A stretch of 64,000 nt of DNA, from positions 62,001 to 126,000 of the forward strand of contig NZ_WVUD01000006.1 in NCBI RefSeq assembly GCF_009856865.1, read 5' to 3'. The notes under the pieces were generated by a model. That model was not told the origin of the DNA, made no database searches, and worked only from the letters and a program-made list of their open reading frames with translations. Source of the DNA: Solidesulfovibrio aerotolerans. Lineage in GTDB: Bacteria; Desulfobacterota; Desulfovibrionia; Desulfovibrionales; Desulfovibrionaceae. A program made the translations under genes and the position numbers. Shown one piece after another: positions 3,016-3,804 of this stretch (position 1 is its first letter; the number at the start of each line of letters is the position of its first letter).

Positions 3016-3579
3016 ATGAAACGCGCCTTATGTACCATCGCCGCCTGCGCCGTCCTGCTGCAGGCCGCAACAGCGGTTGCCCAGGAATACACCCAGGGGA
3101 CAAGCTACGTCGAACCCCGGGGCGGTGTTTACGGAACCACGAATAAAAACGTCAAGGTGATTGGAACCTACGGCGGAGCTGCCGGGCATTACGTTGCCGA
3201 CGGCGTGGCCCTTGAAGCCGAAGGCCTGGGCTACGCCGTGGACCAGACGACCAAGAAGGCCACGCCCCTTGGCCAGGCCAGCTCGGAAACGACCAACAAC
3301 GCCGTGGGCGTTGCGGGCATGGCCCGCTGGAATTTCGTGCGAACACCCAAAGGGACGCTTTCGGTCGCTGCCGGAGGCGGCGGGGTGTTTGCTGACAAGG
3401 CTCTGCCGTATAACGGTTCCGAGCAAAGCGGGATCGGCCAAACCGAACTGGGCGCCTCCGTGGCGCTGGGCAAAAATGTCAGCCTCAAGGCGGCCGGCCG
3501 CTACCAGCACCTGGGTTCGTTTTCCGACAAGGGCCTGGACAGTCTGGGCGGCAACGTCGGCTTTAAGATCAGTTTTTAG
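3016..3579 (+). CDS. Outer-membrane beta-barrel protein, possibly acyloxyacyl hydrolase (PagL)-like
   Basis: A 187-residue protein. The ATG at 3016 follows GGAAGGAG. It has a Sec signal peptide (basic N-terminus, hydrophobic core, cleavage near AVAQ). The mature chain alternates short amphipathic strands rich in Gly, Tyr and Ser and ends in Phe, as outer-membrane barrels do. Near the C-terminus YQHLGSFSDKG resembles the His/Ser region of lipid A 3-O-deacylases, but the usual spacing is not exact, so only a barrel fold is safe. The 3' end overlaps an antisense small gene by 11 bases, and a hairpin terminator lies at 3758-3804. Confidence 0.75.
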   Translation: MKRALCTIAACAVLLQAATAVAQEYTQGTSYVEPRGGVYGTTNKNVKVIGTYGGAAGHYVADGVALEAEGLGYAVDQTTKKATPLGQASSETTNNAVGVAGMARWNFVRTPKGTLSVAAGGGGVFADKALPYNGSEQSGIGQTELGASVALGKNVSLKAAGRYQHLGSFSDKGLDSLGGNVGFKISF

Positions 3580-3745
3580 GTGTCTCGTCGCTGCCGGTCT
3601 TGCTGGCGGGCGGTGGCGACTTTCTGGGATGCGGACCGCACCCCGAATCGACGCCTCAGCCCCGGATGCCGAGTTTGGGAAAGATAAAGCGAACCACCAG
3701 GAACCAGGCGACCAGGATGCCGCCGAAGATAAAGATGTCTTTCAT
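3569..3745 (-). CDS. Candidate small membrane selenoprotein (TGA read as selenocysteine)
   Basis: From the ATG at 3745 the frame encodes 29 residues forming one membrane segment (MKDIFIFGGILVAWFLVVR), then FPKLGIRG. It next meets an in-frame TGA (3658-3656) and stays open for 28 more codons (GVDSGCGPHPRK, then a Pro/Ser/Lys-rich tail) to a second TGA at 3571-3569. Read through, it is a 58-residue protein with Sec six residues before Cys, which looks like a selenenylsulfide redox pair. A hairpin directly after the first TGA resembles a bacterial SECIS. No good ribosome site is seen, and an in-frame TAG lies nine bases before the ATG. If not read through, the product is a 29-residue peptide. 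The idea that deltaproteobacteria have such short Sec proteins is from memory. Confidence 0.6.
3615..3655 (-). promoter_or_regulatory. Candidate bacterial SECIS hairpin
   Basis: It starts with the base after the TGA at 3658-3656. Inner stem GGGGTGCG / CGCATCCC (8 bp, one G-U) closes the 3-nt loop GTC. Outer arms GGCGTC / GTCGCC pair with one mismatch, with 5-nt internal loops on both sides. The loop region reads GGTC starting 18 nt after the TGA, the same motif and the same distance as in E. coli fdhF (comparison from memory). In this GC-rich genome a hairpin alone is weak evidence; the spacing and GGTC are what make it notable. Confidence 0.55.
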
Positions 3746-3757
3746 GGGCGCAGACTA

Positions 3758-3804
3758 CCACAAAACAGCGCGGCGGCAACCAGTCTCTGCGCTGTTTTTT
3801 GTGG
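3758..3804. terminator. Long hairpin terminator
   Basis: Arms CCACAAAACAGCGC (3758-3771) and GCGCTG-TTTTTT-GTGG (3789-3804) pair over their length with two extra T. On the + strand it ends transcription from the outer-membrane gene beyond the antisense small gene. The A-rich arm gives a shorter T run on the minus strand, so it may act both ways. Confidence 0.75.

Follow-up and report, generated by a model that had tools for sequence, protein, structure and literature searches.

The accessible part of a 2026 selenoprotein catalogue counts 119 selenoprotein families and subfamilies in its Table 1 and sets out the constraints on bacterial SECIS (bSECIS) elements, i.e., an apical loop of 3-9 nt lying 16-37 nt from the UGA, a G in the first two loop positions, a stem of at least 4 bp and an energy of -7.5 or lower (PMC13188914). 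According to the same part of that source, recently mined selenoproteins with NCBIfam models include Tso, Sao, and the hypothetical DG, DW, and DF families (PMC13188914). Selenocysteine (Sec) forms of FmdB (TIGR02605, Zn_ribbon_8), likewise a small protein family, are given as two sequences from marine metagenomes in the portion of PMC2398784 that was available. Deep-Sep, published in 2025, listed 10 known and 0 new selenoprotein genes for Salidesulfovibrio onnuriiensis (3,886,744 nt), and 6 known and 0 new for Desulfomicrobium orale (2,783,374 nt); in the accessible part of that report, it is stated that selenoproteins without Cys homologues may be lost by the method (PMC12013277).

Here, we describe a short minus-strand frame in a 64,000-nucleotide stretch of DNA from Solidesulfovibrio aerotolerans (the whole stretch is hereafter the window), which belongs to contig C128; the draft genome amounts to 4.6 Mb in 161 contigs. 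With a probability of about 0.92, this frame would truly encode a selenoprotein of 58 residues that spans the membrane once and belongs to a family absent from the catalogues searched, a judgement based on sequence comparison, without data on expression or selenium. Like catalogued bacterial selenoproteins, it displays an in-frame UGA, a bSECIS-type hairpin with a G in the loop, the SelA/SelB/SelC/SelD machinery, and a Cys homologue. Unlike them, as far as the accessible part of the catalogue goes, the family has products of only 44-67 residues, one membrane helix, mostly a U-x4-7-C arrangement, and a single Cys form in 147 sequences; no entry in Table 1 of that source resembles it by description or Sec motif (PMC13188914).

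Results

Translation of positions 3745-3569 (minus strand) gives MKDIFIFGGILVAWFLVVRFIFPKLGIRG*GVDSGCGPHPRKSPPPASKTGSDETPKN*, that is, 29 codons from an ATG at 3745-3743, a TGA at 3658-3656, and 28 further codons closed by a TGA at 3571-3569, with a Cys six residues past the first TGA. Read through, the putative selenoprotein gene (3569-3745, minus strand) would encode 58 residues with Sec at residue 30, and both the start-to-TGA spacing and the C-terminal Cys are kept in relatives. A single transmembrane helix was predicted by AlphaFold2 at residues 2-24 (3674-3742, minus strand), the only confident part of a model with an unstructured tail (mean pLDDT of 84 for residues 1-10, 86 for residues 11-20, at most 62 later, and 62.6 for the whole). 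An earlier, sequence-only reading had described this same anatomy, i.e., a 29-codon frame with one membrane helix and then FPKLGIRG, followed by a TGA and 28 codons to a second TGA with a Cys six residues on, and both translation and model bear it out. The frame had also been placed antisense to the end of an outer-membrane gene; indeed, it shares 11 bp with the 3' end of a convergent outer-membrane-type ORF (3016-3579, plus strand).

The juxtamembrane motif PKLGIRG (residues 23-29; 3659-3679, minus strand) is conserved among relatives, though not in all of them, and leads directly to the putative Sec residue (3656-3658, minus strand), with the proposed partner cysteine at residue 36 (3638-3640, minus strand). 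Net charge is greater on the C-terminal flank of the helix in 135/147 relatives and on the N-terminal flank in two, so that, by the positive-inside rule, the short N-terminus is inferred to lie outside, and Sec and Cys to face the cytoplasm at the membrane surface.

In the own taxonomic family of the organism, the 58-residue query gave matches at E 0.1 in 64 of 149 genomes, the weaker ones including chance matches; each of the best 25 places contained one TGA inside, and two also contained a TAA. Profile searches detected the protein family in 138/297 genomes and 38/53 genera of the class, and in at least 171/395 genomes and at least 113/246 genera of the phylum, with one locus outside it, in an Acidobacteriota MAG (JARXKK010000007.1). 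Two class matches were judged false: one in genome G008 (E 6.6e-4), presumably a FeoB-associated-type protein, and a partial match in G131, for which the sequence was not fetched. Of the 138 class genomes, 89 (27 genera) supplied 94 of the 147 sequences examined; another 52 came from 52 of the at least 171 phylum genomes, and the last was the Acidobacteriota locus. Together they amount to 72 genera when this locus is counted as one. Relatives across the phylum are only about 20-40% identical and retain the same frame with the TGA at the same place, which puts the frame far beyond chance. From our reading of the alignments, the wider-phylum core is W-x-L-N-x-W-[IV]-[LF]-P-[KR]-[LM]-G-[IV]-x-T-U-M-S-x-x-C; in one alignment (A4), P23, G26, and the Sec site are invariant and W14 and C36 nearly so, while among all 147 sequences a P occurs at -7 from the site in 123, K/R at -6 in 127, and G at -4 in 126. 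The homologue search that had been proposed, allowing Sec or Cys at the site, returned relatives with TGA in many genera and one with TGC. A large genus of the own family (g40), with many genomes carrying selB, gave no copy at E 0.001 in the class search, indicating, as far as this search goes, lineage-specific loss or absence of the gene. Membership of a phylum-wide family had not been foreseen in the sequence-only reading.

Of the 147 sequences, 146 have TGA at the site and one has TGC (Cys), with TGA used exclusively in 71/72 genera, whereas these genes end variously in TGA (56), TAA (47), and TAG (44). Whichever TGA came first in frame past the match start was taken as the site, by which a TAA or TAG form could escape notice; among the class and phylum matches listed, none has a TAA or TAG without any TGA inside. 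These sequences share kinship, and no exact probability is claimed for the TGA bias. The only Cys form (L039/L145, genome G036) comes from a genome in which selB is present, and a congeneric relative carries TGA there. Additionally, a contig scan that also took in other phyla, with patterns built from the pre-site part, yielded eight loci, all of them with TGA at the site.

Past the site, a Cys is found at 5-8 residues in 130/147 sequences and at +12 in one, and none occurs within 15 residues in 16 (a g8 subclade, the second tandem copy of genus g29, and g54, g153, g202, g250, and g108); hence, the Sec/Cys pair is not universal. In the g8 subclade (L070-L073), a Cys does lie further along the tail, in a C-terminal GGCGGN. 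The second tandem copy of g29 retains the TGA with no Cys within the 15 residues after it.

Before the site, pN/pS values of 0.31-0.37 in four genera denote clear purifying selection; after it, they are 1.25 in the own genus (g1), 0.55 in g52, 0.84 in g8, and 0.20 in g29. Synonymous change after the site is lower than upstream in all four genera, most so in g1 (pS of 0.13 in the own genus, versus 0.40 upstream) and g29, and because the coding signal is thereby confounded with that of the RNA, pN/pS does not prove protein selection there. Homologues that all ended before the TGA would have refuted the sequence-only reading; instead, the frame continues, with the Cys kept in 131/147 and TGC in one relative. 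Conservation of the codons past the TGA, which it also implied, holds for the Cys, but codon-level selection is mixed and not visible in the own genus.

Downstream of the TGA, a predicted bacterial SECIS-like mRNA hairpin (3615-3655, minus strand) consists of an 8-bp apical stem (3626-3644) with a 3-nt loop, GUC, which begins after 19 nt; the E. coli fdhF element, too, has GGUC at 18 nt. Its z-score is -2.7 against dinucleotide shuffles and also -2.7 against synonymous recoding. For the strict bSECIS test, the published constraints were implemented in our own script, not bSECISearch, the energy limit being imposed on the apical helix, and synonymous recodings (200 sets for the class and 100 for the wider set) were weighted by local GC, not codon usage. 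In the own genus 12/12 members pass, with 1.4 expected, and in the class 53/93, against 4.4 expected from synonymous recoding (maximum of 9 in 200 sets); controls from the same loci passed in 24/622 cases after TGA ends of ORFs of at least 150 aa and in 58/1880 random windows. The wider set gave 21/53 against 1.16 expected, rising at laxer energies to 36/53 against 2.9 and 40/53 against 5.5. The strict model was nonetheless failed by 40/93 class and 32/53 wider members, and a looser hairpin count (85/93) had no control and was left out of the evidence.

Covariation was assessed with one sequence per genus, the best of 54 registers scanned, and 1000 shuffles. Columns 19/31 are paired in 30/45 genera, with five pair types, compared with 15.1 in shuffles (maximum 25), and columns 18/32 in 28/45, compared with 16.4 (maximum 27); within the class, pairing at columns 19/29 is seen in 18/27, compared with 10.0 (maximum 17). 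Most single stem pairs do not exceed shuffles in this test; judged from these columns, there is compensatory change at part of the stem.

Starts were assigned to the ATG, or else GTG, closest to 29 or 30 codons before the site, which resulted in 142 ATG and five GTG among the 147 sequences. The start-to-site distance is 29 codons in 69/94 class members (27-31 in the rest) and in 34/53 further members (28-31 in the rest), which makes 103/147 overall. A Shine-Dalgarno-like motif precedes the ATG in 69/82 class members outside the own genus and in 44/53 others, and in none of the 12 own-genus copies. In the latter (window 3746-3765; L130-L134, L042-L051), 11/12 have a hexamer compatible with a loose -10 pattern at 6-7 nt ahead of the ATG, a count without control; given this hexamer and the lack of a Shine-Dalgarno-like motif, the own-genus mRNA may be leaderless.

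The genome carries selA, selB, selC, and selD, for which the sequence-only reading had proposed to look; a lack of selB or selC would have refuted it. The tRNA-Sec scores 83.3 bits (cut-off of 47), three weaker matches just above the cut-off being probably other tRNAs; selB (365 bits) and selA (599 bits) share one contig, and selD contains an in-frame TGA of its own, a known type of selenoprotein. In the class, selB (called at E 1e-60) is present in 130/138 family-positive genomes versus 121/159 others (Fisher p 1e-5). Regarding the eight family-positive genomes without a selB match, six are assemblies of 220-510 contigs, and the others are G008 and G131, with their probable false family matches.

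In NCBIfam release 20.0, the window protein matched 0 families, and sets of 28 and 43 members gave only weak matches to non-selenoprotein models (best E 0.010). The models for Tso, Sao, and the DG/DW/DF families, which were sequence-mined as well, were not matched by either set at E 1. In Pfam there was no credible match for the window protein or for the two sets, and PF12669, which we take to be the FeoB-associated Cys-rich membrane protein, was not among their matches at E 1. Weak family matches, ATP synthase B and Arabinose_trans among them (best E 0.0058), seem to be noise caused by the membrane helix. A PDB sequence search gave one chance match (E 0.32), and plasmid records gave one chance match (E 0.3) in one search and none in the other. 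No matching family was found in the accessible parts, supplements excluded, of PMC9312934, PMC2398784, PMC1914089, PMC8318568, PMC1242214, and PMC1794560; the Olavius candidates OS_HP1 (UxxC) and OS_HP2 (pfam07610), as given in the available portion of PMC2398784, do not fit. The literature searched contains no description of the family, but subscription journals were outside its scope, so that absence from print is unproven.

Neighbours were recorded within 3 kb, and their counts are lower bounds, with few query sequences and some flanks of at most 1.5 kb. Fourteen genera, all of them from the class, have purC upstream; fabI occurs in seven and gltX in four, and aminotransferase-like genes are also among the lineage-dependent neighbours; since neighbours vary by lineage, no single pathway emerges from context. 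In 11/72 genera (23 genomes), an FmdB gene shares the strand of the selenoprotein gene at a distance of up to about 0.6 kb, preceding it in some and following it in others, a frequency far above chance considering four to eight FmdB matches per genome (ten genomes) and a rough count of 3000 genes. Unlike the small membrane selenoprotein, FmdB contains a zinc ribbon domain, and the two show no resemblance. A CcdA-like gene is found in 5/72 genera (six genomes, in three of them on the opposite strand) and a thioredoxin gene in 4/72. At one locus (L207, 6001-7648), the selenoprotein gene, a 66-aa ORF without Pfam match, FmdB (Zn_ribbon_8), thioredoxin, and DsbD_TM genes stand in a row, in an operon-like arrangement, while in the Acidobacteriota locus a YgaP-like membrane protein gene follows the selenoprotein gene. 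Beside the gene in the own genus, no thioredoxin or DsbD/CcdA partner was seen, and the neighbours there are uninformative on redox function.

Discussion

At 3658-3656, the UGA very probably specifies selenocysteine, a prediction made without data on selenium incorporation. The tests applied for membership of the known selenoproteins are satisfied, namely a UGA kept at one site and, in the sequences examined, not replaced by UAA or UAG (146 TGA, one TGC), a Cys homologue at the Sec site (by one case, G036), a bSECIS hairpin (passed by the own gene), and SelA, SelB, SelD, and tRNA-Sec in the genome. If the gene ended at the first TGA, it would encode a membrane microprotein of 29 residues, and the hairpin would act as a terminator or in regulation; such a peptide is well formed alone and under purifying selection in four genera (pN/pS as above), the post-TGA values for the own genus (1.25) and g8 (0.84) would suit it, and expression is unproven. 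However, an ordinary stop is expected to vary among TAA, TAG, and TGA as the final stops do, and this one does not; moreover, the Cys past it is kept in 131/147, and hairpins at bSECIS spacing with a loop G occur 12 times more often than expected, which leaves the short product a slim chance.

Near-cognate tRNAs can read through UGA, and an ordinary amino acid (Trp or Cys, by misreading) might thus be inserted without SelB. The SECIS-type hairpins, the Cys homologue, the complete Sec machinery, and the association with selB in the class all oppose this, and we consider misreading highly improbable. One could also suppose that the frame is open merely by chance opposite the outer-membrane ORF: GC-rich DNA often contains antisense frames, and this region, too, has many; yet the overlap amounts to just the 11 bp noted, and the frame is conserved across many genera in wholly different surroundings, so this explanation can be taken as already refuted.

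For the selenoprotein reading, we propose that the ribosome would meet the UGA while SelB with Sec-tRNA(Sec) binds the hairpin, Sec would be inserted, and the tail with Cys36 would then be made; if selenium is scarce, translation would stop and leave the 29-residue helix. A reversible selenenylsulfide could form between the selenol of residue 30 and the thiol of residue 36, in which case the peptide would act as a membrane-tethered redox relay or reductase, reduced at the cytoplasmic side by thioredoxin-type donors and serving a membrane or zinc-ribbon (FmdB) partner. A redox function of the Sec30/Cys36 peptide is inferred only, its sole basis being the neighbour genes of FmdB, thioredoxin, and DsbD/CcdA type, and we hold it as a tentative idea with somewhat less than an even chance of being right. 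To the same tentative degree, this phylum-wide, nearly Sec-only family of single-pass microproteins, very short for selenoproteins, might provide Desulfobacterota in general with a selenol relay at the membrane surface, through which cytoplasmic thioredoxin would be connected with thiol chemistry in the membrane and with zinc-ribbon proteins of the FmdB type.

Alternatively, the gene may encode a selenoprotein in which Sec and Cys bind a metal or soft ligand (Zn, Hg, selenide, or arsenic) without redox activity, as a scaffold like the FeoB-associated Cys-rich proteins. The protein matched in G008, for which the FeoB-associated naming is our assumption, has the same layout of one N-terminal helix followed by a Cys-bearing tail, and the FmdB neighbours contain a zinc-ribbon domain; the G008 protein differs, however, in having no in-frame TGA and several Cys. 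The lack of a PF12669 match among the 28 or 43 members speaks against a shared scaffold, and the retention of Sec in nearly all members argues, by inference, for selenol reactivity, making ligand binding an unlikely role, if one that deserves mention.

The selenoprotein family may have stayed hidden because its members are too short to annotate and have almost no Cys homologues for searches based on Cys/Sec pairs. If confirmed, it would be a widespread selenoprotein of the phylum (the named relatives are Desulfobacterota) missed by two decades of selenoproteome mining. Genomes G214 and G230, with two copies and one copy of the gene, are inferred to be S. onnuriiensis and D. orale, respectively; on that identity, the family was also missed in two genomes covered by deep-Sep, and the possible loss of Cys-less families acknowledged in the accessible part of that report fits one Cys form in 147 (PMC12013277). 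Approaches that depend on Cys homologues, or on ORFs of the usual length, would share a blind spot in which short Sec-only proteins are lost. The family would further offer a directly testable case of why a membrane peptide of 50 residues needs selenium when Cys forms are nearly absent.

Some observations on gene arrangement remain. The convergent ORF at 3016-3579 has no Pfam match at E 0.001. Tandem copies of the gene occur in genus g29 (L113, L114, L116, and L117) and in G214 (L111), and in several own-genus relatives a 187-aa ORF of the same outer-membrane-type kind adjoins the selenoprotein gene.
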